Of a stretch of 50,927 bases of DNA, positions 5,824-49,309 are shown piece after piece. Source of the DNA: Nitrospinota bacterium (GTDB lineage Bacteria > 2-12-FULL-45-22 > JACOWJ01); NCBI GenBank assembly GCA_016176845.1, contig JACOWJ010000006.1, forward strand, positions 1-50,927, in the 5' to 3' direction. The stretch's first letter is position 1. The number at the start of each line of letters is the position of its first letter. The notes under the pieces were generated by a model. That model was not told the DNA's origin, did not search any database, and saw only the letters and a program-made list of their open reading frames with translations. Made by a program: the position numbers and the translations under genes.

Positions 5824-5897
5824 GCTAAGTTTTAAGTTTTAGGTGTTAAGTTTTAGGTTTTTTGCTTAACACTTAAAACCTGAAACTTAAAACTTTC
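5824..5897 (+). repeat. TAAGTTT heptad array folded as an inverted repeat between qmoB and qmoC
   Basis: The left arm repeats TAAGTTT/TAGGTTT with a 7-bp period; the right arm (from about 5866) carries the complement, AACACTTAAAACC then AACTTAAAACTT. The short TTTTTTGC segment forms the loop. The hairpin could act as an RNA processing or attenuation signal between qmoB and qmoC. It is the same class as the arrays at 32.0 and 46.1 kb. Confidence 0.85.
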
Positions 5898-5928
5898 CCG
5901 TAAATCCTGTCTAAAAAGGGACCTGGAA

Positions 5929-7086
5929 ATGGCAGAGGCATACCTGGTGGAACCAGACCTGAAGTTTGTCCAACAGCTCATGGATCTGGGGGGTGGATCC
6001 CTGAAGAAGTGCTATCAGTGCGCGACCTGCTCGGTCGTGTGCAACTCCTCCCCGGACGCCCGGCCCTTTCCCCGCAAGGAGATGATCTGGGCCCAGTGGG
6101 GATTGAAGGATCGGTTGGTTAAAGATCCAGATGTCTGGCTCTGTCACCAGTGCAACGACTGCTCGGTCCGATGCCCCCGGGGTGCCCGGCCCGGCGACGT
6201 CCTGGCGGCAGTGAGAAATTACAGCTTCCTGCACTACGCCTTCCCGAGCTTTATGGGAAAGGCGGTGAGCGAGGTCAGGTATCTACCCCTCCTCTTCGCT
6301 CTTCCGATCCTCCTCCTGTTGGCCCTCCTCTCCCTGACCGGGAATCCGGCGGCCCTCGGAGGTGCCATTGTCTTCGAGGAGCTCATCCCACACGCTTACC
6401 TCGACGCCGGTTTTATCACACTGGGCCTCCTTTCCTTGGGCTCGATTGCGGTCGGAGCCCGCCGGTTCTGGAAAGACCTCCTCGAGAATTCGGCCTCGCA
6501 TGCCGCCGGATGCCTGGGGGATGGGGAGAAGGAGGCGCCCCGGACCGATCCCGGCAGCGAGGGATTCTCTCGTCACCTCCTTTCCGCCTTGAGCGAGATC
6601 TTGAGGCACAGCAAATTCAAGGATTGCGAGGCGAACCCGATCAGATATTACGCCCACCTGGCGATCTTCTACGGGTTCATGGGGCTTTTCCTCACCACCA
6701 CCCTCGTCTTCCTAGGCATCGTCCTGGGGGGGATCCGTCCGCCCTTGGCCCCTTTCAGTGCAGTGAAGGTATTGGGAAACCTGAGCGCATTGGCGGTCTT
6801 TGGGGGCCTCACGGTCGTCATTTATCAAAGAATCACACAAAAAGAGCAGATAGGTCGTAGCTCTTACTATGACTGGTTCTTTATCGGGTCGCTTTATGCC
6901 ATCACCATCACCGGGATCCTGACGGAGGGGGCCCGGATGGCGCGGATGGCCATGATGGCCTATCCCCTTTATGCGATCCACTTAATCTTCGTCTTCGTTC
7001 TCCTGGCCTGCCTTCCCTATTCCAAGTTCGCTCACCTGTTTTACCGGTCTGTAGCCATGGTCTATGCGAAATATTCGGGGAGGTAA
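5929..7086 (+). CDS. qmoC: Quinone-interacting oxidoreductase complex subunit QmoC
   Basis: Membrane subunit of Qmo, expected to oxidise menaquinol and deliver electrons to QmoAB and APS reductase. The N-terminal half is HdrC-like with two cluster motifs, CYQCATCSVVC (residues 28-38) and CHQCNDCSVRCP (about 72-83). The C-terminal half has about six hydrophobic helices of a cytochrome-b/NarI-like domain, with histidines in YYAHLAIF and YAIHLIF as candidate haem ligands. Length 385 is normal for QmoC. It follows qmoB after a 110-bp gap filled by a hairpin repeat, so expression may be partly uncoupled from sat-qmoAB. Confidence 0.92.
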   Translation: MAEAYLVEPDLKFVQQLMDLGGGSLKKCYQCATCSVVCNSSPDARPFPRKEMIWAQWGLKDRLVKDPDVWLCHQCNDCSVRCPRGARPGDVLAAVRNYSFLHYAFPSFMGKAVSEVRYLPLLFALPILLLLALLSLTGNPAALGGAIVFEELIPHAYLDAGFITLGLLSLGSIAVGARRFWKDLLENSASHAAGCLGDGEKEAPRTDPGSEGFSRHLLSALSEILRHSKFKDCEANPIRYYAHLAIFYGFMGLFLTTTLVFLGIVLGGIRPPLAPFSAVKVLGNLSALAVFGGLTVVIYQRITQKEQIGRSSYYDWFFIGSLYAITITGILTEGARMARMAMMAYPLYAIHLIFVFVLLACLPYSKFAHLFYRSVAMVYAKYSGR

Positions 7087-7148
7087 GCAGGCCGATGAGA
7101 GGAGCCGAATACCGCGAGCAGGTGATCCGGCTGATCCGGCTGATACAA

Positions 7149-7277
7149 GTTAGGGGCTAGGGATTAGGGATTAGGGATTAGGGATTAGGGATTAGGGATT
7201 AGGGGCTAGTAAGAAAGAAGAGCTTTCGCTGATCCCTAGCCCCTAGCCCCTAGAAATGGAAATTCCTATACGATCAA
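7149..7277 (+). repeat. AGGGATT/AGGGGCT heptad foldback element with AAATTCCTATA tag
   Basis: The left arm (7150-7210) is a run of GATTAGG units with a 7-bp period bounded by GGCTAG. The loop contains AAGAAAGAAGAG. The right arm (7231-7253) is the complement, CCCTAGCCCCTAGCCCCTAG. It is followed by AAATGGAAATTCCTATACGA. The gap 7087-7335 holds this element and, before it, a short GGCTGATCC direct repeat; I see no gene there. Confidence 0.9.
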
Positions 7278-7335
7278 GATAGCGGCATGGAGTTACAACT
7301 TCGACGAGATTCTCTTTGATCCTGGAAAGTAAGCC

Positions 7336-7364
7336 TTGACGGAATCCCGGAAACGTGCTATAAA
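7336..7364 (+). promoter_or_regulatory. Sigma70-type promoter for the tRNA-Arg transcript
   Basis: TTGACG at 7336-7341 and TATAAA at 7359-7364 are separated by exactly 17 bp. Transcription would begin near 7371, about 170 nt before the tRNA, leaving a long leader with a CCCCGA/TCGGGG stem. No gene is recognised in the leader. Confidence 0.6.
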
Positions 7365-7542
7365 AAGCTCACTTTGCCCATCCATGATCTCTTTTTCCCC
7401 GAGGATAGTCCTCCAATCGGGGAGACCAAGGGGGGTGGGGGGGCGGCTCCAAAAAGGGTCTGCTGCGTATTTCAGTCGCGGCGGCATTGCGGAAGCGCTG
7501 GAGAGAAAAAAGCAATCTCAAAAAAGCCTTAAAATCAGGTGT

Positions 7543-7619
7543 GGGCGAGTAGCTCAGGTGGATAGAGCGTTGGTCTCCGGAACCAAAGGCCGTGGGTTCG
7601 AGTCCCGCCTCGCCCACCA
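7543..7619 (+). tRNA. tRNA-Arg (anticodon CCG)
   Basis: A complete 77-nt cloverleaf is readable: acceptor GGGCGAG pairing with CTCGCCC (7609-7615), discriminator A and an encoded CCA at 7617-7619. The D arm has GCTC...GAGC, the anticodon stem is TTGGT/ACCAA with loop CTCCGGA, and the T arm has loop TTCGAGT. Anticodon CCG reads the CGG arginine codon, frequent in these GC-rich genes. A promoter-like sequence lies upstream and a terminator directly downstream, so it is a stand-alone transcript. Confidence 0.96.
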
Positions 7620-7631
7620 TACAATTTAGCG

Positions 7632-7659
7632 AAAGGGGCCGGTACACGGCCCCTTTTTC
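7632..7659 (+). terminator. Intrinsic terminator of tRNA-Arg
   Basis: Stem AAGGGGCCG / CGGCCCCTT with a 5-nt GTACA loop, followed by a T run (7651-7658). It starts 13 nt after the tRNA CCA end. Confidence 0.9.
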
Positions 7660-7761
7660 ATTTCCGAAAAAAGATGAAATTCTTGGGGGATAAATAGAGG
7701 ACATTATCGCGAATAAAACCTCACAATGAATGTCATTTCGAAGGAGCAAAAGGGGGTGCCT

Positions 7762-8457
7762 ATGAGAACAAAAAGACGTTGGTTATTCCTTCCGGTCTTT
7801 CTCACGCTGGTCTTGTCCATGGGGCGGTGGGCTGCCGCCGAGGAGTGGTCGATCGCCGGCCACTACGCCGAGGCCTGCAGCTGCGATGCGGCCTGCCCTT
7901 GCGTTTACGGCTCCCCACCCACGATGGGCCACTGTCACGAGGCCCTGGCCTTTGACATCACCAAGGGAAAGTATGGCCAGACCAACCTCTCCGGCCTGAA
8001 GTTTGTCTCCACCATGGAGATGGGCAAGGGAACCTGGATCGCCTACTACCTGGACGAGAAGAGCACCCCGGACCAGCGGCAGGCCCTGGAGTCGATCTTC
8101 AAGAAGCTGCTGGGAGGATTCGCCAAGGAGGACCTTGGAGCCAAGGCCGTCCGCATCTCCATGGCCTCCGAGGATAAGGGCAAGGCCCGGGCGGTGGCTA
8201 TCCCGAATGTCCTGAAGTTCCGGGTCGAGAAGCCCGCCGGCCTGGATGGGGAGAGCCCGGTGGTGATCGCCAACCCTGGCCGACACTTTATCCCCATGCT
8301 GACCGTGGCCCGCTCGACCCAGGACGAATTCAGCGACCACGGGAAGAACTGGTCCTACAAGGACAAGAGCGGCTTTCATGGGGAATTCTCCTTCTCCAGC
8401 AGCCAGCCGGAGCAGACGAGAAGTGACTGGCAAATCGGCATACCCAAGCTGCCATGA
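7762..8457 (+). CDS. DUF1326 domain protein, exported (first copy)
   Basis: Predicted exported protein of 231 residues. The start MRTKRRW at 7762 is preferred over an upstream in-frame ATG at 7726 because it follows a GGAG/AGGGGG ribosome site and opens a clean signal peptide (cleavage near WAAA-EE). The DUF1326 domain begins with the Cys-rich motif EACSCDAACPC followed by a Cys at MGHC (residues about 37-58) and ends with GFHGEFSFSSS. DUF1326 has no established function to my knowledge; the clustered cysteines suggest metal or cofactor binding. It leads a cassette with a gluconate-dehydrogenase-like subunit, a GMC flavoprotein and a second DUF1326 protein. The stop lies inside a GAGCGAT tandem repeat. 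Confidence 0.85.
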   Translation: MRTKRRWLFLPVFLTLVLSMGRWAAAEEWSIAGHYAEACSCDAACPCVYGSPPTMGHCHEALAFDITKGKYGQTNLSGLKFVSTMEMGKGTWIAYYLDEKSTPDQRQALESIFKKLLGGFAKEDLGAKAVRISMASEDKGKARAVAIPNVLKFRVEKPAGLDGESPVVIANPGRHFIPMLTVARSTQDEFSDHGKNWSYKDKSGFHGEFSFSSSQPEQTRSDWQIGIPKLP

Positions 8458-8485
8458 GCGATGAGCGATCTTAGAGGGGAAATCG

Positions 8486-9034
8486 ATGAGAGAGCTAACC
8501 AAAAGAGAGTTCCTGGAGTTGAGTTTGAAGGGAGCGCTGATCTTGACGGCGGGCGGACTGGTGGACCTGCCGCGTCCCTCAGGGGCCCAGTCCATTCCGC
8601 CTTACCTCTCCCCCTCCGAACGGGGGGCCCTACGGGCCATGGCTGCTCGCCTGATTCCCCAGGATAGCGACCCAGGGTTCCTGGAGTTGGAGCTGGGGAG
8701 CCTGATGGAGACGATGATGCGGGTGACTCCCGAGACGAGGCCCCTGGTCCCCTTGGGCCTCAAGGGGCTGGACGAGTCCGCTCGGGCAATGTTTCACAAG
8801 GAATTCGTGGGCCTTGCCCCGGCTCAGCAGGACGAGATCCTGCGGGCCCTGGAGGGGGGGACGGCCTCGGGGGAGGCCTGGAAGGCCCTGCCCAGCTCGC
8901 GCTTTTTCCGGCTGGTGCGGATGTTCACCGTGGGGCTCTACTACTCCCATTCCACGGCACGGCGGATGATCGCTTACCCCGGACCGGGCCAGCCTCACGG
9001 CTACCCCGATTACGCGGACCTGAACTGGAGTTAG
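8486..9034 (+). CDS. Gluconate 2-dehydrogenase subunit 3 family protein
   Basis: 182 residues, resembling the small subunit 3 of membrane gluconate/sugar dehydrogenases, thought to help export or mature the GMC flavoprotein subunit. The N terminus (LTKREFLELSLKGALILTAGG) looks like a degenerate Tat signal with KR in place of RR, followed by a hydrophobic stretch. The body contains LSPSERGALRAMAARLIPQD and the C-terminal GLYYSHSTARRMIAYPGPGQPHGYPDY, typical of the family. The gene ends 21 bp before the GMC gene, the standard order. No cytochrome c subunit, the usual third partner, is found nearby. Confidence 0.8.
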   Translation: MRELTKREFLELSLKGALILTAGGLVDLPRPSGAQSIPPYLSPSERGALRAMAARLIPQDSDPGFLELELGSLMETMMRVTPETRPLVPLGLKGLDESARAMFHKEFVGLAPAQQDEILRALEGGTASGEAWKALPSSRFFRLVRMFTVGLYYSHSTARRMIAYPGPGQPHGYPDYADLNWS

Positions 9035-9055
9035 CTCATTCAAGGAGAAGACGCG

Positions 9056-10597
9056 ATGGCTGAAAAGGTCTACGACGTCCTGATCGTGGGGACGGGGGCG
9101 GCCGGCGGGGTGCTGGCCAAACAGCTGGCCGAGGGAGGCCTGTCGGTCCTGATCCTGGAGGGGGGCGGCCGCCTCGATCCCAAGACCGACTTCCGCAACG
9201 ACGAGCTCTTCATGGGCAAGCTCCACGGCTGGCCCTGGCCCATCGAGGGCCCCTGGGCCCCCATCACTTCCTATGGCCTGGGGGGCTCCATGCTCCATTA
9301 TGCAGGCTGGTCGGTTCGCTTCCACCCCAGCGACTTCCGGACCCGCAGTCGCGATGGGGTGGGGGATGACTGGCCCATGGAATGGAAGGATCTGGAGCCT
9401 TACTACCAAAAGGTGGAGGAGATGATCGGCGTGGCGGGCGCCAATGATAACCCCTTCGAGCCTCCCAAAGAGCCCTATCCCCTGCCTGCGCACAAACTCA
9501 ACCGCAATGCCCAGGTCGTTCGCCTGGGCGCCCAGAAGCTGGGCCTGAAGCTCCTCACGGCCCCGCTGGCCATCAACTCCATGCCCTACGATGGCCGCCC
9601 CCCTTGCAGCTACTGCGGCTTTTGCACCAACGGGTGCATGACCGGGGCCAAGGGGGAGTCGCTTGTCAGTTACATCCCCAAGGCTCTGGACAAAGGGGCC
9701 GAGCTGCGCCTCCAGGCCTTCGTCACCCGGGTGAACCTCGACAACGACGGCAAGGCCTCCGGGGTGTCCTACATCGATCAGCGGACCGGCCAGGAGGCCG
9801 AGGCCCGGGCCAAAGCGGTGGTGCTCGCGGCCAACGGCATCCAGAACCCCCGGCTCCTGCTCCACTCCACCTCGAACCGTTTTCCCCAGGGGTTGGCCAA
9901 CTCGAGCGGCCTGGTGGGCAAGTACCTGACCATCCACCTCAACCCGGGCGCCTGGGGGACCTTCGAGCGGCCGATTCAGTTCTACAAGGGGACTCAAGTG
10001 GGGGCCATGATCCAGGACTTCTACGAGACCGACCCTAAACGGGGCTTCGCCCGGGGCTACATCCTGGTAGCGGCCGGCTTTGGCCCCGTGGGGATGGCAA
10101 CCATCTCGGGCCTATGGGGAGAGGAGCTCAAGGGGCTCATGCGCCATTACGACCACGTAGCCGGATTTTGGAGCATGGGAGAGGACTTGCCCCAGGAGGG
10201 CAACGGCGTAACCCTGGATCCCCAACAGAAGGATGAGTTCGGGGTCCCCTTCCCCCGGATCACCTATCGTCATTCGGAGAACGACCTGGCTATGCGCCGC
10301 CACTTCCACCAGAAGGCCCGAGAGATCCTAGAGGCCGCCGGGGCCAGGAAGGTTTACGTAGATAAGAGCCAACAGGTTGCCATCCATTTCATCGGGACCA
10401 CCCGGATGGGCAAGGACCCCAAGAGCTCCGTGGTCAACTCCTTCGGCCAGGCCCACGAGGTCAAGAACCTCTTCCTGGCCGGCAGCAGCATTTTCGTCAC
10501 TTCCGCGCCGGCCCCGCCGACGCTGACCATCCAGGCCCTGTCCGCCCGAACGGCCGACTACATCCTGTCGGAGGGAAAGAAAGGGAACCTGGGATAG
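9056..10597 (+). CDS. GMC-family flavoprotein oxidoreductase (gluconate-dehydrogenase type)
   Basis: 513-residue FAD-dependent oxidoreductase related to the large subunit of gluconate/fructose/sorbitol dehydrogenases. The FAD-binding GTGAAGG motif is at residues 12-18, a Cys cluster CSYCGFCTNGC near residue 183 and the conserved HFIGTTRMG segment near residue 443. The C-terminal segment reads APAPPTLTIQALSARTADY, where relatives usually have NPTLTI; the Asn/His expected as the second active-site residue seems replaced by Pro, which may alter chemistry. No signal peptide is seen, consistent with export via the subunit 3 partner. Substrate unknown. RBS AAGGAG at 9041-9046 supports the start. 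Confidence 0.85.
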   Translation: MAEKVYDVLIVGTGAAGGVLAKQLAEGGLSVLILEGGGRLDPKTDFRNDELFMGKLHGWPWPIEGPWAPITSYGLGGSMLHYAGWSVRFHPSDFRTRSRDGVGDDWPMEWKDLEPYYQKVEEMIGVAGANDNPFEPPKEPYPLPAHKLNRNAQVVRLGAQKLGLKLLTAPLAINSMPYDGRPPCSYCGFCTNGCMTGAKGESLVSYIPKALDKGAELRLQAFVTRVNLDNDGKASGVSYIDQRTGQEAEARAKAVVLAANGIQNPRLLLHSTSNRFPQGLANSSGLVGKYLTIHLNPGAWGTFERPIQFYKGTQVGAMIQDFYETDPKRGFARGYILVAAGFGPVGMATISGLWGEELKGLMRHYDHVAGFWSMGEDLPQEGNGVTLDPQQKDEFGVPFPRITYRHSENDLAMRRHFHQKAREILEAAGARKVYVDKSQQVAIHFIGTTRMGKDPKSSVVNSFGQAHEVKNLFLAGSSIFVTSAPAPPTLTIQALSARTADYILSEGKKGNLG

Positions 10598-10613
10598 AAC
10601 CGGCGGGGCGATA

Positions 10614-10707
10614 AATTAGGGGACAGGGTACAGGGAACAGGGGACAGGGATGGGCTATCAGAGAAATGATGGCCCCTCCAAAAAGGAAATTCCTATATGA
10701 TCAAGTT
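10614..10707 (+). repeat. ACAGGGG heptad array with AAATTCCTATA tag
   Basis: AAATTAGGGGACAGGG followed by imperfect 7-bp repeats of ACAGGGG, then a small GGGC/GCCC stem and the tag AAGGAAATTCCTATATGATC. Same architecture as the element at 7149 but with a different unit sequence. Confidence 0.85.
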
Positions 10708-10752
10708 AGCTCATAAAAAATTAAGCTCCAGGCTCTCAGGAGAATTAGACCC

Positions 10753-11679
10753 ATGAGAAATCACCTTGCCTTTTGCCGTTTGTCTTCGTCCTCGGAGCAG
10801 CGAGGAGCGATCCGTCCGGTCCCCTTGATCCTGCTGATCCTGCTGGGCGCTGCCCTGGCAGGATGGGTGGGAGGGAATCCTTTGGGGGCAGGGCCCCTCC
10901 AGGGGCAGGCCCCTGGCGCCCTCTGCGAGATCCATCCCTTGGAGAAGGGAGAAGGGCAGGGGAGGGAACCCCTAAGGGGAAAGCCTTCTGCTCCCATCTC
11001 GCAACAAGAGGGGGCGGGCTGCCACTGGATGGTGGCGAGCGCAGAATCTACTCCCCATTCTCACCCTTCCGCCCAGGGATCTTCCTCGGCTCCACCCCCC
11101 GAATGGGAGGTCCTGGGACATTACGCCGAGGCCTGCAACTGTGAGGTGGGCTGCCCCTGTATTTACAAGTCCCCGGCCTCCCATGGGGAGTGTGAGGCCA
11201 CGTTGGCCTTCTCCATCACCAAGGGCCACTTGGGGGCCGTGGGTCTGTCGGGGCTCAATACGGTCGTGGTGGCGGAGGCTGCCAAGGGAGGGTTCGTTTC
11301 CTACTACCTGGACGACCGGGCCACCCCTCAGCAGCGGGAGGCCCTGGCCGGAATCTTTCGTGGGATTTTCGGGATCCTCTCCAAGAACGACCTGGGAATG
11401 AAGATCGTCCCCATCCGGATGGACGCCTCGAGCCAGGACTCCACCCGGCGGACCCGAGGGGTAACCATCCCGGACGTCCTGCTGCTAGAGGTGGAGAAGG
11501 TAATCGGCCTGGACGGGCAAGGGCCTACCGTGGTCCAGAATCCCGTCCACTCCATCAACGAGCTGCTGGTAGCCAAATCGAAGATCTATCGGTTCAAGGA
11601 CCATGGCAAGTCCTGGGAGTATACCGGCCGGAGCGGGTTCCACGGGGAGTTCTTCTTCTCCAGCCTTTACTTCAAGTAG
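10753..11679 (+). CDS. DUF1326 domain protein, exported (second copy, long linker)
   Basis: 308 residues. The C-terminal 190 residues are a paralogue of the first DUF1326 protein, with the same motif layout (HYAEACNCEVGCPC, later GEC, and GFHGEFFFSS at the end). The N terminus differs: a hydrophobic segment near residues 23-42 (signal or anchor) is followed by about 70 residues of Gly/Pro/Ser-rich linker before the domain starts near residue 122. The linker DNA is GC-rich and repetitive, so repeat expansion is possible. Identity between the two copies is moderate, so the duplication is not recent. It closes the DUF1326/GMC cassette. Confidence 0.82.
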   Translation: MRNHLAFCRLSSSSEQRGAIRPVPLILLILLGAALAGWVGGNPLGAGPLQGQAPGALCEIHPLEKGEGQGREPLRGKPSAPISQQEGAGCHWMVASAESTPHSHPSAQGSSSAPPPEWEVLGHYAEACNCEVGCPCIYKSPASHGECEATLAFSITKGHLGAVGLSGLNTVVVAEAAKGGFVSYYLDDRATPQQREALAGIFRGIFGILSKNDLGMKIVPIRMDASSQDSTRRTRGVTIPDVLLLEVEKVIGLDGQGPTVVQNPVHSINELLVAKSKIYRFKDHGKSWEYTGRSGFHGEFFFSSLYFK

Positions 11680-12096
11680 TTCGATTTCGGAGAGGCCAGG
11701 GATTAGAGGCTATACGACAAAGAAATTCCTCTGCGATGAAGTTTCAAAGGCCAGCGTCCGGGGTCGGAGGGAGGGAGCCGCTTCTGTCTCCCGAAGGCCG
11801 ACCCCTGACCCCTTTACGCCATAGTATACCGTTCCCGATGACCCACCGCGCCCGGCTGTCGAGTGCTGACCTGGGTGCCACGGTTCCCCTTGAAATCCCC
11901 CCCGCCCACGTGCTATTTTTTGTTGTCAGATCCGGCGCTCCAACAACGAGGAAGCCATCGATATTCCATGAAGCCCATACATAACCGCTATGAGGGAATT
12001 GATACGAAAATAGCCCCTCACCCCACCCCTCTCCCCCGAAGGGAGAGGGAGCCTCACAGGCCATTTTCATGGGCTTGGGTGTCCCAAGGGGCATGG
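11680..12096 (+). other. Intergenic region before gltX, repeat remnants only
   Basis: Holds a short relic of the heptad/tag element at 11697-11740 (AGGGATTAGAGG, then AAGAAATTCCTCTGCGATGA). An inverted repeat GTCCGGGGTCGG / CCGACCCCTGAC lies near 11757-11811 and a CCCCTCTCCC/GGGAGAGG stem near 12020-12050. I see no gene and no convincing promoter. Confidence 0.6.
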
Positions 12097-13569: not shown

Positions 13570-13613
13570 AGCTCTTTCTCTTTACCCTGGACCCATGAAG
13601 TGGTAGGACAGCA

Positions 13614-15697: not shown

Positions 15698-15711
15698 CGA
15701 AGGAGATCCCC

Positions 15712-16491: not shown

Positions 16492-16547
16492 AAACGAGCT
16501 CGAAGCCTTTCGTACTCCTAAACTTTGAGCGATGAGCGATGAGCTAA

Positions 16548-17384: not shown

Positions 17385-17392
17385 GGGCCGCC

Positions 17393-17440: not shown

Positions 17441-17466
17441 CATCACATCAGCTCATGCGCGCTAAG

Positions 17467-31762: not shown

Positions 31763-31988
31763 CCCGGATTGATCGGTCAATCTGCAACTCTCCCTCCCAA
31801 CCCTGCCCTGGTTACTTGATTACCAAACCCGAGCCTCAAAAAGTTCTTCTCGCTGAAAAAAGCCGCGAGAGGGCCGTGCCGCAAGCGAGGCATCTCAACT
31901 GCTAACCTTCATACCATCCCAAACTGGCAACCAAGTTGCCATCCCTAAAACAGTTCAAAGTCTCGAATCCCGCACCCACTAAGGACTG
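31763..31988 (+). other. Gene-free spacer after the response regulator
   Basis: Contains a small GATTGA/TCAATC stem (near 31768), a TGGCAA/TTGCCA hairpin (near 31924) and a segment near 31951-31977 (TTCAAAGTCTCGAATCCC, then GCACCCAC) that looks like a degenerate tRNA T-arm and acceptor end. No terminator with a T run and no gene are seen. Confidence 0.4.
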
Positions 31989-32075
31989 GCGACCAAATAA
32001 CTTTCCCATGGTCGAATGGGATAATAGGTTTTAAGTTTTAAGTTTTAGGTTTTAGGGCTTAAAACTTAAAACCTA
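31989..32075 (+). repeat. 87-bp dispersed repeat, copy 1, with TAAGTTT foldback
   Basis: Identical over 87 bp to 46070-46156. It contains a TCCCAT/ATGGGA stem and then a longer inverted repeat built of TAAGTTT/TAGGTTT heptads (TAGGTTTTAAG...CTTAAAACCTA). It is followed by GC-rich CCGCAGAG/CTCTGCGG inverted sequence to 32140. The remaining gap to 32323 has no recognised feature. Confidence 0.92.
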
Positions 32076-32323
32076 AAGGCCGCAGAGAAGAGGGAAAGCG
32101 GGTTGTCTCTGCGCTCTCCGCGCCCTCTGCGGTTTAATTGGACACCCTACAAACCATTAGAAGTTATGGCACGCAATATGCTCTTATAGGTTGAAGGCTG
32201 CTGGCAAAAATGAAGAATCAATGGCTGTATTCAACCATCGCTCGGTCACCGGACCAACGGAATGGAATCCGGGCGCGGACGAGGTAGGCTCTCCGCAAAC
32301 TTTTGCACAGGGAGGTTCCGACC

Positions 32324-34326: not shown

Positions 34327-34403
34327 CCAGGGATTAGGGAAAACTCTTCTTCACGAGCCCCTAATCCCTGATCCCTAATTCGACCCTATAGGAATTTCTT
34401 TTT
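34327..34403 (-). repeat. AGGGATT heptad foldback with AAATTCCTATA tag, minus orientation
   Basis: Read on the minus strand: AAGAAATTCCTATAGGG tag first, then TTAGGGATCAGGGATTAGG, loop GTGAAGAAGAG and CCCTAATCCCTGG. The loop matches that of the element at 43634. It is followed at 34418-34480 by C-run/G-run stems and a CAAGGGGGGGTAATT direct repeat. Confidence 0.82.
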
Positions 34404-34509
34404 TCAGCGAAGACTCCCCCATCCCTCCCCCCTTACGAAGGGGGGGCAAGGGGGGGTAATTCAAGGGGGGGTAATTCAAGGAGAGCCTGAAAGGGAGGTT
34501 TGCCGTGAG

Positions 34510-35157
34510 ATGCAGCCCGTATTTAGAGACAGAGAAGAGGCCGGAGAAAAGCTGGCGGAAAGGCTAGCCGGGTATGAGGAGGGCGAGGTCATCGTGTTGG
34601 CCATCCCTCGGGGAGGGGTGCCGGTCGCTTATCAGATTGTCAAGAGACTGAAGGTCCCTCTGGATCTGATCCTCCTGCGGAAACTGCCCATCCCGTGGGA
34701 GCCGGAAGCCGGCTTTGGCGCTATCGCCGCCGATGGGACATGGGTCCTGAACCAGTCCATGGTCAAGCAATTGGGGCTTACGGACGCCCAGATCGAAAGG
34801 ATTGCCGCCAGGGTCCTGGAAGAGGTCGAACGGCGGAGGGATAAATACCTGCAGGGCCGGGAACCCCTCGAGATCCAAGACAGGATGGTTATCCTGGTGG
34901 ATGACGGCCTGGCCACCGGTTATACTATGATTGCAGCGATCGAAGTGGCAAGGAAGAAAGGGGCCCGGAAGGTGATCGTGGCCACCCCGGTTAGCCCTCT
35001 CAGCACCTATCATCGGGTGGCCTCTCGGGCCGATGAGCTCGTCTGCTTGATGATCACCGAGGCCTCTCCCTTCGCCGTTGCCAGCTTCTATCAAAGCTTT
35101 CCGGACATGACCGACGATGAAGTTCTGGAATACTTGAAACCGACATGCCCAAGTTAG
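34510..35157 (+). CDS. Phosphoribosyltransferase family protein
   Basis: 215 residues, type I PRTase fold. The PRPP-binding loop VILVDDGLATGYTM is near residues 127-140, and the N-terminal IPRGGVPVAYQI matches the stand-alone PRT proteins often encoded beside stress or dienelactone-hydrolase genes. The acceptor base is unknown. A GGGAGG ribosome site lies 12 nt before the ATG. The last codons (PTCPS) and TAG stop fall into the start of an AAGTTAGGGG repeat element, so the natural C terminus may have been altered. Confidence 0.82.
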   Translation: MQPVFRDREEAGEKLAERLAGYEEGEVIVLAIPRGGVPVAYQIVKRLKVPLDLILLRKLPIPWEPEAGFGAIAADGTWVLNQSMVKQLGLTDAQIERIAARVLEEVERRRDKYLQGREPLEIQDRMVILVDDGLATGYTMIAAIEVARKKGARKVIVATPVSPLSTYHRVASRADELVCLMITEASPFAVASFYQSFPDMTDDEVLEYLKPTCPS

Positions 35158-35322
35158 GGGACAGGTCACAGGGGACAGGGGATCGTCACTCCTTCCCCTT
35201 GTCCTTTGCCTCTTGTCTCCCGTTCATTTTCTCATCCTGTCCATACAGATTATTGGGACCCTATCCCCTGTCCCCTGTCCCCTGTTCCCTGTCCCCTGTC
35301 CCCTGTTCCCTGTCCCCTAACT
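35151..35322 (+). repeat. ACAGGGG heptad foldback element
   Basis: Left arm AAGTTAGGGGACAGG (35151-35165) continues with GACAGGGGA units; right arm 35265-35322 is a long array of CCCTGTC/CCCTGTT heptads ending CCTGTCCCCTAACTT, the exact complement of the left end. The loop of about 80 bp has no gene. The element provides the stop codon of the phosphoribosyltransferase gene. Confidence 0.92.
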
Positions 35323-35362
35323 TGATCCGTCCCCGGGAATGAAAATGGCCCGACCGGCAGCG

Positions 35363-36550: not shown

Positions 36551-36562
36551 GGGCTCCCCCTT

Positions 36563-37379: not shown

Positions 37380-37440
37380 CTTACGGCCCTGCCCCCATTT
37401 TGCGGAAGGGAATGCAGGGTTTCGCCAGAGGCCTCGAGGG

Positions 37441-39301: not shown

Positions 39302-39364
39302 GATCTCTCTCCTCTGGAAAGGTAACCGCCTTGAATCTTGCCCGGAGGCGACTCTACCGGGCTC

Positions 39365-39583
39365 ATTCGTGTCAACTTAAGGTTTAGTCCTGGGAGAAGA
39401 GCGGCCATCCTGGCCGCTCTTTGTGGGCAGGGACGCCCGCTCTCCCAGGGGTTAAGGGACTCAAAAATAATTAAACATCCCAGATAACGGTTGTAGGGGC
39501 GACCCGGCGGGTCGCCCCTACGCTGGCCTGCAGGCGTTGTCTGGTACAGTTTAATTTTACAGAGTCCCTAAGTTGACACGAAT
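39365..39583. repeat. Nested inverted-repeat element of about 219 bp
   Basis: Outer arms ATTCGTGTCAACTTA (39365-39379) and TAAGTTGACACGAAT (39569-39583) are exact complements. Inside are a hairpin AGAGCGGCCA/TGGCCGCTCT (39398-39420) within CCTGGGAGA/TCTCCCAGG, a second arm pair GGGACTC...AATTAAAC / GTTTAATT...GAGTCCC, and a perfect GTAGGGGCGACC/GGTCGCCCCTAC stem (39493-39521). It fills most of the gap 39302-39765; no gene is seen there. Confidence 0.82.
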
Positions 39584-39765
39584 GCTACCGGCTTATCATC
39601 CTGCGAAAGAAACGGCCCTATTTTCCCCCAATTCTCGGGCGAGGTCAAGCTGGTTGTTGGAGAAAAAAGTATTGACGCATGGAGGTCCGCTGTAATACAA
39701 TAATCAAATCTCTTTTGAAGTTTTTTGAATTTCTATCCGGGAAGAAACGGTTCGGAAGGTCCCTG

Positions 39766-40851: not shown

Positions 40852-40867
40852 AAGCAAGGGCAAACCG

Positions 40868-40957
40868 ATGGGATTCGTGAGGACCCAAGAGGAAATCGCC
40901 CGCATTCGGGCCACTCTGTCCGAGCCCCGATTTAACAAGCAAGAGGAGCAGACATGA
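40868..40957 (+). pseudogene. Remnant of the 5' end of an acetoacetate-decarboxylase-like gene
   Basis: ATG at 40868 opens 29 codons reading MGFVRTQEEIARIRATLSEP and then RFNKQEEQT before a TGA that overlaps the epimerase ATG. The first 22 residues resemble the N terminus of acetoacetate-decarboxylase-family proteins (MGFVKTPEEIARI pattern), from which about 230 residues would be missing. The truncated end merges with the AGAGGAG ribosome site of the epimerase, suggesting a deletion. It may still be translated as a coupling leader. Confidence 0.45.
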
Positions 40958-41886
40958 AGATCCTGGTTACGGGGGGAGCGGGGTTCATTGGCTCTCAGGT
41001 GGCAGATCGCTACCTGGAGTTAGGCCATGACGTGGTGATTGTCGATGACCTGTCCACCGGAAAGGAGAGGAACGTCAACCCCCGGGCACGTTTCTACCGG
41101 ATGGACATTCGGGATCGTGCCCTCAGAGAAGTCTTTGAGAGGGAAAGACCGGAGGTCATCAACCATCACGCGGCCCAGGTCGACTTACGGCGATCCGTGG
41201 GGGAGCCCTCCTGGGATGCGGGGATCAATATTTTGGGCTCGCTTCACCTGCTGGAGTTAGCACAGGCCTTCGAGGTTCACCGGCTCATCTACATCTCCAC
41301 CGGCGGGGCTGTTTACGGGGAGCCGGAATACCGCCCGGTGGACGAACGGCACCGGATCAAGCCCCTCTCTCCTTATGGGATTAGCAAACACACCGTGGAG
41401 CGCTACCTGACCCTCTATGGCAAAAGCCATGGGCTTCCTTACACCATCTTACGCTATCCCAATGTCTATGGCCCCCGTCAGGACCCTAAAGGCGAGGCGG
41501 GGGTGGTGGCCATCTTCAGCCAGAGGATGCTTTCGGGCCTCCGGCCCACCATCTTTGGGGATGGCTCCAAGACCCGAGACTATGTTTATGTGCAGGACAT
41601 CGCGGAGGCCAACGTCCTGGCCCTCACCGCCGAGACCGGAGAGGTCTTTAACCTGGGCTGGGGCCGGGAGGTGCGGGATATCGAGGTCTTCGAGGCCATC
41701 CGGAGGGCGGTGGGCCAGCAGATCGAGCCCGTTTATTCGGAGAAGAGGCCGGGCGAGGTCGATCGCATCTGTCTGGATAGTTCCAAGGCCCGTCGGATTC
41801 TAGGCTGGGAGCCCAAGGTCACGTTGGAGGAAGGCATCCGGAGGACGGTGTCCTTTTACCGGCTTGCTGCGCAAGCCGAATTGTAA
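40954..41886 (+). CDS. NAD-dependent sugar-nucleotide epimerase (UDP-glucose 4-epimerase type)
   Basis: 310-residue extended short-chain dehydrogenase. NAD motif TGGAGFIGS is at residues 6-14, the catalytic Ser/Thr region is YISTGGAVYGE, and Tyr-Lys are in SPYGISKHTVE near residues 149-153. RYPNVYGPRQ and the C-terminal LGWEPKVTLEEGI are typical of GalE-like/UDP-sugar epimerases. Substrate is uncertain. AGAGGAG precedes the ATG. The TAA stop lies in the left arm of an inverted heptad repeat. Confidence 0.87.
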   Translation: MKILVTGGAGFIGSQVADRYLELGHDVVIVDDLSTGKERNVNPRARFYRMDIRDRALREVFERERPEVINHHAAQVDLRRSVGEPSWDAGINILGSLHLLELAQAFEVHRLIYISTGGAVYGEPEYRPVDERHRIKPLSPYGISKHTVERYLTLYGKSHGLPYTILRYPNVYGPRQDPKGEAGVVAIFSQRMLSGLRPTIFGDGSKTRDYVYVQDIAEANVLALTAETGEVFNLGWGREVRDIEVFEAIRRAVGQQIEPVYSEKRPGEVDRICLDSSKARRILGWEPKVTLEEGIRRTVSFYRLAAQAEL

Positions 41887-41997
41887 AATGGAAATTGCAA
41901 AGTGCAAAGTGCAAAATAGAACAAAATGGAATTTATCAATTTAAATTTCCAATTTCCAATTTCCAATTTCCATTTTGCATTTTGCATTTTACAATTC
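41881..41997. repeat. GCAAAGT/TTCCAAT heptad inverted repeat
   Basis: Left arm TTGTAAAATGGAAATTGC followed by GCAAAGT units (41881-41917); right arm 41945-41996 with TTCCAAT, TTCCATT and TTGCATT units of 7 bp, ending TTTTACAATT, the complement of the left end. Sits between the epimerase and nadB, and may act as a 3' RNA stabiliser. Confidence 0.88.
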
Positions 41998-42014
41998 CCC
42001 GACGGGGGTAAGGG

Positions 42015-43640
42015 ATGTCTGAGGCGAACCGAAGCGACTTCTTAGTGATAGGCAGCGGCATTGCGGGGTTAACCTTCGCCCTGAAGGCTGCGGAATATGG
42101 CGACGTGATCATCCTCTGCAAGAAAGAGATGGCCGAGGGCAGCACCAACTATGCCCAGGGGGGCATTGCCTCGGTCCTCAGCGAGGAGGACTCCTATGAG
42201 CTCCATATCCGAGATACCCTGGAGGCAGGGGGAGGACTGTGCAAGGAGGAGGTGGTGCGGATCCTGGTAGAGAACGGACCCGCTCGGATACGGGAACTGA
42301 TGGCGTGGGGAGTAAACTTCACCTTCCGCCGGACGGGAAGCGATATTGCCCACCTCGACCTGGGAAAGGAGGGGGGCCACTCGAAGCGGCGGATCGTCCA
42401 TGCGGACGACCTGACCGGCCGGGAGGTAGAGCGGGCCTTGCTGGAGCTGGTCCGCTCGCGGGGCAACATCGAGATCTGCGAGCACCACATCGCCATCGAT
42501 CTGATCACCCGGGGGAAGCTGGACAAGAAGGTCCAGCTCGGGGGAGAGGAGGACCTCTGCCTGGGGGCCTATGCACTGGACTGCACCACGGGCGAGGTGA
42601 AGACTTTCCTGGGAAAGATCACCCTGCTGTCCACCGGTGGGGCGGGAAAGGTTTACCTCTACACCAGCAATCCCGATATCGCCACCGGCGATGGGGTGGC
42701 CATGGCCTACCGGGCTGGGGCCCGGGTGGGCAACCTGGAGTTCATCCAGTTCCATCCCACCTGCCTCTATCACCCGGAGGCGAAATCCTTCCTGATTTCC
42801 GAGGCAGTACGCGGGGAAGGGGGGATCCTGCGGCTCCGGGACGGGACCCCCTTCATGGAGCGGTATCATCCCCGGGGCTGCCTGGCCCCCCGGGACGTGG
42901 TGGCCCAGGCGATCGACAGTGAGATGAAAAAGCGGGGGGACGACTTCGTCTACCTGGACGTCACCCACCTGGGACGGGAGCGCATCCAGGAGCGATTCCC
43001 CAACATCTACCAGCAGTGCATCTCCTTTGGCCACGACATTGCCGAGGAGCCCATCCCGGTGGTCCCGGCGGCCCATTACCTGTGTGGCGGGGTGATCACG
43101 GATACTTATGGCCGCACCAATATCGACCGGCTCTACGCCTGCGGCGAGGTGGCCTGCACGGGGGTCCATGGCGCCAACCGCCTGGCCAGCAATTCGCTGC
43201 TGGAGGCCCTGGTCTTTTCCCACCGGGCCTGTCAGCGAACCCGGGAGGAGATTCATTGCCGCCCAGTCTGGGAGACCAGGGAGATTCCCCGATGGGATAT
43301 CGGCAACGCCGTCGATAGCGACGAGTCGGTGGTGGTGGCCCACAACTGGGACGAGATCCGCCGGACGATGTGGAACTACGTGGGGATCGTCCGGTCGAAC
43401 AAACGGCTGAACCGGGCCAGGAGACGTATCGAGATCCTGCAGGAGGAGATCCGGGACTACTACTGGGACTTCCTGGTGACCAGCGACCTGGTCGAGCTCC
43501 GCAACATCGCCACCGTGGCCGAGTTGATCATCCGCTCGGCCATCCTGCGCCAGGAAAGCCGCGGACTTCACTATAACCTGGATTACCCCTCCCGGGACGA
43601 TGTCCACTGGCTGAAGGATACTGTCCTTCAAGTAAGTTAG
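42015..43640 (+). CDS. nadB: L-aspartate oxidase
   Basis: 541-residue FAD enzyme that converts L-aspartate to iminoaspartate, the first step of de novo NAD synthesis; it can use fumarate as acceptor in anaerobes. FAD motif [11 protein letters not shown] is near residues 11-21, YAQGGIASV near 46-54, EFIQFHPT near 242 and [15 protein letters not shown] near 380. The C-terminal helical domain is complete. nadA and nadC are not in the window. The TAG stop is part of the AAGTTAGGG start of the next repeat. Confidence 0.93.
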
Positions 43641-43737
43641 GGATTAGGGGTTAGGGATTAGGGGCTAGTGAAGAAGAATTTTTGCTAACACTTACCCTCT
43701 AGCCACTTAAAAATGGAAATTCCCATACGAGTAAATT
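43634..43737 (+). repeat. AGGGATT heptad element with AAATTCC tag
   Basis: Starts AAGTTAGGGATTAGGGG, runs in 7-bp steps to GGCTAGT, has the loop GAAGAAGAATTTTTGC, a degenerate right arm ACCCTCTAGCC and the tag AAATGGAAATTCCCATACGA. It supplies the nadB stop codon (43638-43640). Confidence 0.88.
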
Positions 43738-43759
43738 AAGATTCCATAACGAGCAGAGA

Positions 43760-46042: not shown

Positions 46043-46069
46043 TTGAATATACCTTTCCCTTAAGGAATA

Positions 46070-46156
46070 GCGACCAAATAACTTTCCCATGGTCGAATGG
46101 GATAATAGGTTTTAAGTTTTAAGTTTTAGGTTTTAGGGCTTAAAACTTAAAACCTA
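46070..46156 (+). repeat. 87-bp dispersed repeat, copy 2
   Basis: Identical to 31989-32075 over 87 bp, including the TCCCAT/ATGGGA stem and the TAAGTTT foldback. It lies in the convergent gap between ftsK and the DUF151 gene, where it could work as a bidirectional 3' structure. Confidence 0.92.
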
Positions 46157-46174
46157 CTTCAGAAGGCGAAAGCG

Positions 46175-46675
46175 TCACACCTCATATTTGCCAAAGTCCT
46201 CCGGCTTCAGGTTCTCCAGCCACTCCTTCCACTTCTCGGAATCGTCCCTTCCCTCCTTGCCCTCCACGGTAAGATCGATGCTCTTGGCCTCATCGAGAAC
46301 CTTCTTGGCCACGTAAATGGGAGCATTGACCCGCAGGGCGATGGCGATGGCATCGCTGGGTCTGGAATCGATGATCACCTCGCTGTGATTGATATTCAGT
46401 GAGATAATAGCATAGAAGGTATTGTCCTTGAGGTCGTTCACCACGATCCGATTTACTTTGGCCTTGATCCCATCCAGGATATTCTTGATCAGGTCATGCG
46501 TCATTGGCCGGGGGGTAGGCACCTTCTCCATTTCCAGGGCAATGGCGTTGGCCTCGAAAATTCCGACCCAAATGGGCAAGGCCCTTTGCTCTTCTAGGTC
46601 TTTCAATATCACGATGGGCATGTTGGTTAACGGATCCAGGGTTAACCCTTTGACCTTCATTTCGATCTCTGCCAT
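46175..46675 (-). CDS. Bifunctional nuclease family protein (DUF151)
   Basis: 166 residues. DUF151/BFN domain with the conserved core [18 protein letters not shown] and [26 protein letters not shown] (read in parts, residues about 34-130). Family members have been described as nucleases or regulatory proteins. The start [15 protein letters not shown] at 46675 follows GGAGGGG; the upstream ATG at 46723 lacks such a site. A charged C-terminal tail ends in GKYEV. Confidence 0.85.
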
Positions 46676-46786
46676 GTTGCGCCCCTCCTCTCCCTCGAGT
46701 GCCCCATCAGCCTTGGGGTACATCTTTTCTCATCTCAAAAATGCCGTCAACGACTATTGAGAAATAACCTCTTCGCCAGCATTTCG

Positions 46787-48115
46787 CTATCTGGGCTCTT
46801 TTAGAGCGAGTCTACCCTCCAGGCTATACAACTTCCCCTGGATGACCTCCAGCTCCACCAAGTGTCCAACAAGACCTTCCGGTCCACGAAAGTTAACGAT
46901 CTTGTGGGTTCGGGTCCTCCCCGTCAACTTGGCTGGATCTTTCTTGCTCGCGCCTTCTACCAAAACCTCAACTCGCTTCCCCTCCAGCTCCTGATTTTTT
47001 CTCAGGGTGATCCCCTTCTGAAGGGCCAGGATCTCCTCGAATCGTTCTTGCTTGACCTCCTCGGGCACCTGGTCGGAGAGGGTAGCTGCCACCGTCTCTG
47101 GCCTGGCTGAATACTTAAAGAGGAAGAGGCTATCGTACTCGACCTCCTCGATCAACTCCCTGGTCCTCGCGTAATCTTCCTGGCTCTCCCCAGGAAAGCC
47201 TACGATCACATCCGTAGAGATCCCTATGCTCGGAAGTAAGGCCCGCAGCCGGGCGATCTTGGCCCGGTACTCCCCCGCGGTGTACCTGCGGTTCATCCGG
47301 TCCAGGACGGAATCGGACCCGGCTTGAACGGGTAGGTGAATGTGCTCGCAGACTTTGGCCAACCTGGCCATCGCTCCCATTAATTCTTCGGATAGGTCCT
47401 TGGGATGGGAGGTGGTGAAACGAATCCGTTCGATCCCATCCAGGTCATCGACCCGAGATAAAAGGCCGGGAAAGGCGCCCTCGTCGACCAGGTCTTTCCC
47501 ATAGGCATTCACGTTTTGGCCCAACAAGGTGACCTCCTTATAACCCTGGCGGGCCAGCCCCCGGATTTCATCCAGGATCATCTCCCCAGGCACGCTTCGC
47601 TCAGGACCTCGTGTGTAAGGAACGACACAAAATGAACAGAAATTATTGCAGCCCTGCATGATGGTCACCCAGGCCTTGACCGTGCTCTCTCTCCGGATGT
47701 GCGGGGATACAAACTCTCCTTTGACCTGAGCGACATCGGCCACCTTGCCCTTCCCTTGCCTTAACTGCCGCAACAACTCAGGCAGACGACTGATATTTTG
47801 GGTGCCGAAAACCAAATCGACCTGAGGGGCCCGTTCAAAGATCCTCTTCCCTTCCCGCTGGGCGATGCAACCTCCGACGCCAATCGCCAACGATGGGTTC
47901 TTCTTTTTTAATCCGGCCAACCGGCCCAGCTGGCTGTAAAATTTTTGCTCCGCTTTCTCCCGGATGCAACAAGTGTTCACCAAGATCAGCTGGGCCTCCT
48001 CCAGGTTATCGGTCAGTTGATAGCCCTCCCCCTGTAAGATTCCACCGATCTTCTCGGAGTCATACTCGTTCATCTGACAGCCGTAAGTCAACAAAGCCAG
48101 GTTCTTGTTAGGCAT
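46787..48115 (-). CDS. miaB: tRNA-2-methylthio-N6-dimethylallyladenosine synthase
   Basis: 442-residue radical-SAM methylthiotransferase that modifies A37 of tRNAs reading UNN codons. The N-terminal UPF0004 domain has the three cluster cysteines (TYGCQMNEYDS, NTCCIREKAE and GVGGCIAQREG). The radical SAM motif is CNNFCSFCVVPYTRG near residue 155, and a TRAM domain closes the protein. MiaB is preferred over RimO/MtaB by the CCIREKA and CVVPYTRG patterns. Confidence 0.93.
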   Translation of the reverse strand: MPNKNLALLTYGCQMNEYDSEKIGGILQGEGYQLTDNLEEAQLILVNTCCIREKAEQKFYSQLGRLAGLKKKNPSLAIGVGGCIAQREGKRIFERAPQVDLVFGTQNISRLPELLRQLRQGKGKVADVAQVKGEFVSPHIRRESTVKAWVTIMQGCNNFCSFCVVPYTRGPERSVPGEMILDEIRGLARQGYKEVTLLGQNVNAYGKDLVDEGAFPGLLSRVDDLDGIERIRFTTSHPKDLSEELMGAMARLAKVCEHIHLPVQAGSDSVLDRMNRRYTAGEYRAKIARLRALLPSIGISTDVIVGFPGESQEDYARTRELIEEVEYDSLFLFKYSARPETVAATLSDQVPEEVKQERFEEILALQKGITLRKNQELEGKRVEVLVEGASKKDPAKLTGRTRTHKIVNFRGPEGLVGHLVELEVIQGKLYSLEGRLALKEPR

Positions 48116-48131
48116 CGCTCCATCTGACCCT

Positions 48132-48161
48132 TTTATATCCCTTTACGCCCTGTTTTATCAA
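48132..48161 (-). promoter_or_regulatory. Probable sigma70 promoter of miaB
   Basis: On the minus strand TTGATA (48156-48161) and TATAAA (48132-48137) are 18 bp apart. The start point would fall near 48125, leaving a very short leader that still contains the GGAG before the ATG at 48115. Confidence 0.5.
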
Positions 48162-48223
48162 GGGCCTCCGTACCATCAATTAGCTCTAAAAATATATTAT
48201 CCCGCCCCGGATGTCAAGGATGG

Positions 48224-49138
48224 TCAGCCATGTCGGGTCTCGATGAACCTTAAGGTCCGGGACCGGGATTGCATGACCAGGGAATAGGTGGTAGCTCCAC
48301 CGCTATAGAACCGCACCCCTTTCAGGATGTCCCCATCGGTGATCCCCGTGGCGACGAACATCACGTTCTCCTTTCGAACCATCTGCTGGATGGTTAAGAT
48401 CGACGAAGCCGAGCCCCTCGTAAGCTCCTGCTCCCTGGGCAGCAGCCGACCCTGAATATCTCCCCGGGTACATTGGAGTGCCGCAGCCGCCAGGATTCCT
48501 TCTTTGGCCCCGCCAATTCCCATCAGGACTTCAACCCCCGACCCCTCGATGGAGGGGGCGATCGCCGCTGAGACATCGCCATCCCCGATGAGCTTGATGC
48601 GGGCCCCGGTCTCCCGGACCTCCCGGATCAGGGAGGCATGGCGCGGCCGATCGAGGATCACCACCGTGAGGTCCTCCAGATAGCACCCCAGGGCATCGGC
48701 GATATTGCTCAGGTTCTGCTGAGGGGAGAGGTTCAAGTCGATCGCCCCCCGGGCCTTCGGTCCCACAGCGATCTTCTCCATATAGCCATCCGGGCAGGGA
48801 AGGAAACAGCCTTTCTCGCCGATGGCGATGATGGAGATGGAGTTGGGACCGCCCGTGGCGCAGATGGTGGTTCCCTCCAGAGGGTCCAGGGCAATGTCCA
48901 CCTGAGGAAGATCTCCCGTCCCGATCCGCTGTCCATTGAATAGCTCTGGCGTCTCCCCTTTTTCGCCTTCGCCCAGCATGATCCTCCCATCCATACGTAC
49001 CGCGTCCAGCGCCTTTTTCATGGCCTCCATAGCCTTGTGATAGGCCAGATGCTCGTCCCCCAGACCCATAATACGGGCGCAGGCCATGGCCGCCGCCTCG
49101 GTGACGTGAAGGACTTCCAGCGCCAGGTTCCTTTCCAT
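48224..49138 (-). CDS. glpX: Class II fructose-1,6-bisphosphatase
   Basis: 304 residues. Hydrolyses fructose 1,6-bisphosphate in gluconeogenesis. GlpX-type metal and substrate motifs: MLGEGEKGETPELF (about 75-88), DIALDPLEGTTICATGGPNS (about 100-119), GDGDVSAAI near 204 and MGIGGAKEGILAAAAL near 225. The start MERNLALEVLHVTEAAA at 49138 follows AGAGGAG; the upstream in-frame ATGs add only basic, non-family residues. Confidence 0.9.
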   Translation of the reverse strand: MERNLALEVLHVTEAAAMACARIMGLGDEHLAYHKAMEAMKKALDAVRMDGRIMLGEGEKGETPELFNGQRIGTGDLPQVDIALDPLEGTTICATGGPNSISIIAIGEKGCFLPCPDGYMEKIAVGPKARGAIDLNLSPQQNLSNIADALGCYLEDLTVVILDRPRHASLIREVRETGARIKLIGDGDVSAAIAPSIEGSGVEVLMGIGGAKEGILAAAALQCTRGDIQGRLLPREQELTRGSASSILTIQQMVRKENVMFVATGITDGDILKGVRFYSGGATTYSLVMQSRSRTLRFIETRHG

Positions 49139-49250
49139 TTGTCTATCGCTCCTCTTCAATAGCCCGATGGGATGGTTCGCTCCTCCCCTCGCCATTCTCA
49201 TCCATCAACTTAGCACAACCTCCGCTCCCCTTCAAGGGAGAATACCAAAA

Positions 49251-49309
49251 GCAGGGATTAGGGACTAGGGATTAGGGGCTAGGGGCTAGGGGGCAGGGAT
49301 TAGGGCATG
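49251..49309 (+). repeat. AGGGATT/AGGGGCT heptad array
   Basis: Seven to eight 7-bp units of AGGGATT, AGGGACT and AGGGGCT, slightly out of phase near the end (GGGGGCAGGG). No complementary right arm and no AAATTCC tag are present, so it is a single-arm example. The remainder of 49139-49372 has no gene. Confidence 0.88.

Follow-up and report, generated by a model that had tools for sequence, protein, structure and literature searches.

Reports of intergenic repeats with a period of seven bases in bacteria go back decades and have given them neither a carrier nor a cause. Their over-representation is already known (PMC4692102 and PMC4679880), and what is available of the reports on cyanobacterial short tandemly repeated repetitive (STRR) sequences, on GGGNATC arrays of Xanthomonas and Nostoc (PMC4692102) and on TAACTGA arrays (PMC4679880) describes intergenic 7-nt arrays of several units, sometimes in inverted pairs, and links them to no mobile element with defined ends. 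Among transposons, the closest described system is the rolling-circle IS91 family (IS91, IS801, ISCR), which uses Y2 HUH transposases. IS801 inserts beside GAAC, GGAC, CAAG or CGAC, GCAC being a possible left border, and its one-ended transposition requires the right end alone (PMC3189936). Here, we analyzed a 50,927-nt stretch of a Nitrospinota bacterium (contig JACOWJ010000006.1 of assembly GCA_016176845.1, positions 1 to 50,927; hereafter, the window), in which intergenic arrays keep a 7-bp step while their unit sequence changes. In the best-defined group, the arrays are very probably the swappable hairpin cores of IS91-type rolling-circle mini-elements, which are ~70–200 bp long and non-autonomous. 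The 7-nt intergenic excess itself is known and not new; the main new point is its carrier, a gene-free family of IS91-type mini-elements that crosses phyla, and the heptamer pattern is real and general.

Results

The genome of the window (G000; assembly 68% complete) was sampled as 40 stretches plus the window, with 20 stretches picked by repeat hits and 20 unselected (285 kb). Word counts beside arrays revealed two fixed neighbours, AAAWGGAAATTCCTATRC and GGCGACCAAATAACTTTCCCATGGTCGAATGGGATAATA. The first comes after array cores of several unit clans and also after non-heptamer palindromes such as GATTGCTTCGCTTCGCTCGCAATGAC, and the second, seen in 14 copies, always sits before AGGTTTT/AAGTTTT arrays. 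The constant right end of the mini-elements reads AAAWGGAAATTCCTATRCNWT; its tail AAATTCCTATRC was recovered by search in all copies, and the ori end can also be written GGAAATTCCTATAC. Aligned copies share the block AAAA[TA]GGAAATTCCTAT[AG]C, after which comes a looser stretch, NWT+YAARNTA, that ends abruptly. The block is invariant, with the boundary where the YAARTTA flank ends, among 68 copies of the own genome and 43 from other genomes. In total, 102 tail copies were found in G000, and the reversed pattern gave 0.

The region upstream of the tail folds into a variable hairpin (mean z −3.16, or about −3.2, in the own genome against −0.25 in downstream controls, and −2.11 in other genomes against −0.48). 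A left motif, YAARNTA or GAACTTA, is enriched, being present in 43 of 53 own copies and in 11 of 53 downstream controls. The left (ter) end combines a tetranucleotide with a stem-loop, as in GAACTTAGCGCCCTTCGGGCGG of Latescibacterota and others. An element runs from a left (ter) end YAARTTA or GAACTTA through a hairpin core, made mostly of inverted heptamer arrays, to the constant right (ori) end AAAAWGGAAATTCCTATRCNWT. Mini-elements also occur stacked head to tail, and at locus L058 (5159–5193) two of them stand tail to tail, so placed that 14-bp inverted GGAAATTCCTATRC arms enclose a 7-bp spacer.

The same tail occurs in metagenome-assembled genomes named Deltaproteobacteria, Syntrophobacteraceae, Latescibacterota, Cloacimonadota, Desulfobacterales and others; the genomes in which it was counted held 5 to 67 copies each. 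Within the phylum of genome G106, 29 of 395 genomes had it, with a maximum of 85 copies; single hits among them should be discounted, as the reversed control also produces these. Searches of plasmids and phages for the tail returned nothing useful, a scan of viral contigs found none, and the sole match in an Rfam search was tRNA.

Five or so unit clans make up the arrays of the own genome: AGGGRYT, ACAGGGG, ARGTTTT, NCAATTT and GAGCNAT. A correctly oriented tail closely follows 31 of 102 strong arrays on the 3′ side; 4 more are near a tail, 13 belong to a miniature inverted-repeat transposable element (MITE), and 54 have neither neighbour. By clan, the tail accompanies 16/33 AGGGRYT, 3/5 ACAGGGG, 4/11 GAGCNAT and 5/21 ARGTTTT arrays, with 13 more of the ARGTTTT arrays in the MITE. 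Several tail-less AGGGRYT arrays still start with CAAGTTA and look truncated. Palindromes that are not heptamer arrays (GATTGCTTCGCTTCGCTCGCAATGAC, GATTCCTCGCTTCGCTCGGAATGAC) were also observed between the same ends, with GAACTTA on the left (loci L002, L004, L005, L013, L045 and L053, e.g., L053 17462–17536).

Two further element classes carry heptamers. Family I is an inverted-repeat MITE with terminal inverted repeats: its six full copies measure 138–202 bp and have imperfect inverted ends, AGGA..GGCGACCAAATAACTT and AAGTTATTTAGTCC..TCCT. A third class consists of NCAATTT arrays bordered by small GC hairpins, CTCGCGAAGCGAG among them. NCAATTT arrays ending in a GC hairpin (CTCGCGAAGCGAG, CCCCGAAGGGG) were noted at window positions 41879–42010 and at L015 10290, L044 2132 and L054 13667.

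The right end of the tail elements resembles that of known IS91 relatives. IS91 on the E. coli plasmid CP122838 ends in AAATTCCTATCGAT|CAAG, 177 bp after its transposase gene, and a Klebsiella relative (CP113224) ends in AATTTCCTATACGT|CAAG. The published oriIS ends of ISCR1 (ACTTCCTATACCC / GTGGTTTATACTTCCTATACCC; PMC13023784) and ISCR27 (AACTTCCTATACC / GCGGTTGAACTTCCTATACC; PMC8894482) have TTCCTATAC near the tip in common with the mini-element right end. At the left, both the CP122838 element and the Klebsiella relative carry the stem-loop GGCAGCCTGGCGGCTGC, which in CP122838 reads CGAG-TA-GGCAGCCTGGCGGCTGC. The tetranucleotides CAAG, GAAC, GGAC and GCAC recur at mini-elements.

An IS91 transposase gene was located ~95 bp from CTGATGCCAAAAAAGGAAATTCCTATACAAT in two genomes, complete in G327 and cut by the contig end in G127. 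On the opposite side of the G327 gene stands GAACATATCGCACCTTCGGTGCGGG, which resembles mini-element left ends elsewhere. The encoded protein scored 240 bits against NF033538 (IS91 family transposase; cut-off 125) and also matches Y2_Tnp and Zn_Tnp_IS91, and by eye its NPHLH and YLAKY correspond to the HUH and YxxxY patterns. The ~1.5-kb IS91-type transposon copies of the two genomes (L290:1323–2868 in G327 contig C196; L289 in G127 contig C28) are 99.8% identical over 1135 bp, which suggests recent transfer, mis-binning being less likely. The Y2 genes that were located first, in G099, G100, G105 and G106, do not adjoin the tail.

Insertion sites were examined in genome G102, where seven copies of a 72–75-bp subfamily begin with a constant CAAGTTA and the sequence to the right of the tail varies. 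Therefore, the left motif is part of the element, and the motif on the right is host sequence. We joined the G102 flanks and searched them in the sister genome G104, which is ~94% identical. Three of the seven empty-site tests were clean (GCTCTCT|CAAGCTA, ATCATTT|TAAATTA and AGAGC/ACT|TAAATTA), two gave messy alignments and two did not resolve. Insertion is precise, directly 5′ of YAARNTA, and occurs without target duplication. The TAAA targets at two of the clean sites fall outside the published tetranucleotide set. We rejected a target-site duplication, as the flanks are alike and not identical, and also a classical MITE identity for the tail elements, whose ends are not inverted and whose empty sites show no duplication. 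A tyrosine-recombinase site was likewise rejected, the tail's resemblance to an FRT arm being taken as chance, and integron attC sites were set aside after a general comparison.

The excess of period 7 was evident in DNA chosen without regard to repeats. Arrays in intergenic DNA were counted if they had 11 or more consecutive period matches, and coding was separated from intergenic DNA by a crude longest-ORF (open reading frame) rule that makes the split approximate. On this count, the unselected 285 kb held 26 arrays of period 7, 17 of period 14 (multiples) and 0 each at periods 5, 6, 8 and 9. The repeat-selected sample held 65–67 intergenic period-7 arrays against 0–1, where dinucleotide shuffles of the same DNA led us to expect 0.05. 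Over-represented intergenic tandem arrays of 7-nt units, the mark of STRR and other heptanucleotide repeats, are thus present here. Far from being confined to one contig, TTAGGGATTAGGGA by itself recurs at 45 places on many contigs of the own genome. Peaks at period 7, built from quite different units (GACACCT, TTCGTTA, AAACGTG, TTGTGAA), also appeared in three unrelated genomes, G106, G108 and G099, the first with an additional peak at period 8 and the second at period 9. Cores with 8–10-nt steps (CACGAAGGA, GCAGAGGAC, CAGGATTAA, CACAGAG) were seen to fill the same element slot in other genomes (L074, L076, L078, L092, L220–L225).

Array lengths vary in whole units. The distance from left end to loop in AGGGRYT elements is 12, 19, 26, 33 or 54, so that 24 of 24 fall into one class modulo 7, as do 13/14 and 6/6 MITE arrays and 7/7 AAGTTTT elements. 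Left and right arm lengths were uncorrelated (r = −0.28, n = 16). Whole units are gained and lost, independently in the two arms, a pattern that agrees with slippage or unequal exchange.

Within the window (forward strand unless stated), mini-elements that are intact and complete by their ends occupy 7146–7274 and 10612–10701. The former comprises the left end CAAGTTA (7146–7152), an AGGGATT array (7150–7204), a loop, an inverted array (7234–7253) and the right end AAATGGAAATTCCTATACGAT (7254–7274), followed by a target-like flank CAAGATA; the latter has TAAATTA at its left, an ACAGGGG array (10618–10649), a hairpin, the right end AAAAGGAAATTCCTATATGAT and the flank CAAGTTA. A third copy complete by its ends (43633–43731) joins an AGGGATT array, the loop GTGAAGAAGAA and a right end with one change (AAATGGAAATTCCCATACGAG) to the flank TAAATTA, and its left end TAAGTTA overlaps the stop of nadB, the L-aspartate oxidase gene. 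At 5821–5919, a truncated copy retains CAAGCTA, AAGTTTT hairpin arrays, the spacer TTTCCCGTAAATCCTGTCT and a right end cut after AAAAAGG; its core occurs with an intact tail in other copies. More degraded remains are an AGGGATT-type core at 34327–34404 (reverse strand), stacked behind the tail remnant GAAATTCCTATAGGGT of a neighbouring element, and two ACAGGGG-type cores in opposite orientation that have lost their right ends, one at 35150–35220 with the left end CAAGTTA and one at 35253–35324 (reverse strand) with the same left end at 35318–35324.

The other classes are represented by right-truncated family I MITE copies at 31982–32077, with AGGTTTT/AAGTTTT inverted arrays, and 46063–46154, and by the third-class element at 41879–41996, an NCAATTT/GCAAAGT heptamer hairpin followed by the GC hairpin CCCCGACGGGG. 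A solitary AGGGATT/AGGGGCT array (49250–49305) has neither an inverted arm nor element ends, and a short GCAGTGG array (711–735) is tied to no element found. The latter lies between two CAAATCAGAGGGGGAAAGGGATRGATGT copies ~70 bp apart (672–775). Two DUF1326 genes stand close together (7726–8454 and 10753–11676), each with a mini-element upstream.

An original prediction, made from the letters of the window alone, had listed most of these arrays. Tandem Repeats Finder confirmed period-7 arrays at the listed sites (711, 5826/5865, 7150/7234, 10618, 32025/32058, 34359, 35156/35259, 41892/41944, 43637, 46106/46139 and 49253), and the constant step with changing unit, as well as a peak at 7 in the sampled genome, by which it was to be judged, proved real. 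Its inverted arms were borne out for the cores beside the tail, as the folding values above indicate, with the array at 49251 as an exception. The GAGCGAT doublets or triplets that it placed at 8456 and 16526 were recovered as short arrays (a doublet at 8454–8469 and a doublet-triplet at 16526–16544) but are marginal. Its description of the arrays as intergenic holds in general, except that the one at 711 falls within an ORF by the crude caller, and the arrays at 32025 and 46106, listed as separate, are instead two near-identical copies of one dispersed element.

Discussion

The mini-elements resemble the IS91 family in a right end TTCCTAT(A)C next to a CAAG-type target, a left end formed by a tetranucleotide and a stem-loop, the lack of target duplication, and an IS91 transposase beside the same end in two genomes. 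In contrast to that family, they are 70–200 bp long, gene-free, present at up to ~100 per genome and fitted with many unrelated hairpin cores, and the gene in the autonomous G327/G127 copies reads away from the ori end. With the one-ended miniature IS801 fragments of P. syringae (PMC3189936) they share a constant right end and a left border set by the tetranucleotide alone; however, those fragments are pieces of IS801 itself, while the mini-elements form stable high-copy families in several phyla, and their hairpin cores have no relation to the transposase gene. Compared to the heptanucleotide repeats described in the available portions of earlier reports, the difference is that many arrays here are the core of an element. 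An open literature search, covering part of the literature, returned no description of a gene-free IS91-type mini-element family with swappable cores.

A Y2 HUH transposase acting in trans would nick the ori end, after which a single strand would be transferred until the process stops at a hairpin with its tetranucleotide, and hence nearly any hairpin beside a ter-like sequence could be carried. Slippage in hairpin or single-strand intermediates would lengthen and shorten the heptamer arrays, in mini-elements and in other elements, in steps of whole units. Eukaryotic rolling-circle Helitrons have one fixed start end, a hairpin and a short terminal motif at the other end, and swappable internal sequence. 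Our working scheme is similar, but the mini-elements have no RepHel protein and differ in their ends and target.

Several results weigh against this assignment. The tail adjoins about one third of the strong arrays (31/102), as compared to 12% of random intergenic points, and only 3/30 NCAATTT arrays. The empty sites concern the G102 subfamily, which has a core other than a regular heptamer array, and not the window's own copies. In the transposase-bearing copies, the tail lies ~95 bp upstream of the start codon and the gene reads away from it, while the ori of reference IS91 is downstream of the gene; because the gene points away from the ori end, we term the system IS91-type, with inverted gene, and not plain IS91. 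The own genome, at its given completeness, yielded only a remnant of an IS91 transposase (HPHLHCLV and a C-terminal piece at the start of contig C24; L234:100–420), and several element-rich genomes had no detectable Y2 transposase. Repeated genes that break assemblies may explain these missing genes, but the gap is real. Given that NCAATTT arrays are rarely linked to the tail and that 13 arrays sit in the MITE, IS91-type mobility by itself does not account for period 7.

The most substantial alternative, to which we would give somewhat less than an even chance, treats the arrays as simple-sequence repeats that arise by replication slippage with a 7-nt preference, e.g., from a polymerase contact length, with nearby element ends being incidental. 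The idea of slippage by a polymerase footprint was proposed earlier (Mrazek 2007, as cited in PMC4679880 and PMC4692102), and it agrees with the period-7 peaks of other units in G106, G108 and G099, many without an adjoining tail, with copies that differ by whole units and with the independence of the two arms. However, many arrays occupy fixed places in dispersed elements whose flanking parts are common to the copies, and they keep one phase relative to the left end and the loop. Because of these shared flanks and the constant phase, such arrays were spread by copying and did not arise where they stand. A change of length by slippage can go together with arrays carried by mobile elements. Selection for a structure at gene ends (a terminator, an RNA stabilizer or a G-quadruplex), as for repetitive extragenic palindromic (REP) sequences, appears unlikely as the force that keeps the arrays. 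They are intergenic with strong hairpins, and G-rich heptamer repeats of Xanthomonas and Nostoc fold as quadruplexes (PMC4692102), but unrelated cores, including A+T-rich ones, fill the same slot, arm lengths are unmatched, and copies of G102 are missing from its sister genome, so they are not generally required. Unit-wise change and independent arms make slippage or unequal exchange a better account than selection for matched arms.

A mover of the Y1 type, which would make the tail elements REP-like or derived from IS200/IS605, is very improbable. A hairpin without target duplication or terminal inverted repeats would suit it, and Y1_Tnp genes occurred in 6/8 genomes tested; yet no Y1_Tnp was found in G000 with its 102 copies or in SZUA-191, nor was the Y1 transposase expected of IS200/IS605 or of REP-associated tyrosine transposase (REP/RAYT) systems found in G000 or G101. 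Moreover, the right end and the CAAG/GAAC/GGAC/GCAC flanks match IS91 elements, and the transposase that adjoins the tail is Y2/IS91.

As to why the unit is seven, IS91-type transposition alone is an unlikely cause, since three element classes carry arrays and further arrays lie outside all of them. A bolder possibility, which we consider unlikely, is that rolling-circle transposition makes the heptamers: the 7-nt ter (CAAGTTA) would be read, and misplaced or repeated termination, or restart at the hairpin, would add or remove a 7-nt step. If true, the array units would be drifted ter copies, and one machine would fix the period and leave the sequence free. The array directly follows a 7-nt ter, AAGTTTT and CAGTTTT units resemble ter, and lengths are fixed modulo 7; counting against it, AGGGATT and GAGCNAT units have no clear resemblance to ter, and arrays also lie outside tail elements. 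The original interpretation, in which a mechanism that counts length, such as slippage or templating, or selection for a structure produces the constant period, is partly supported: lengths do change by whole units, in a manner that favors slippage or unequal exchange, but selection on matched arms is less favored and the dispersed elements with fixed ends that carry many of the arrays had been overlooked.

A large share of these arrays can now be placed inside mobile elements with defined ends, chiefly the IS91-type mini-elements, which occur in several phyla and would otherwise be liable to misreading as regulatory repeats. With a known element and a candidate transposase, the question of why seven becomes experimentally approachable. 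IS91-type transposons, best known for the movement of resistance genes, have also given rise to abundant relatives that carry no gene and whose hairpin cores are replaceable.

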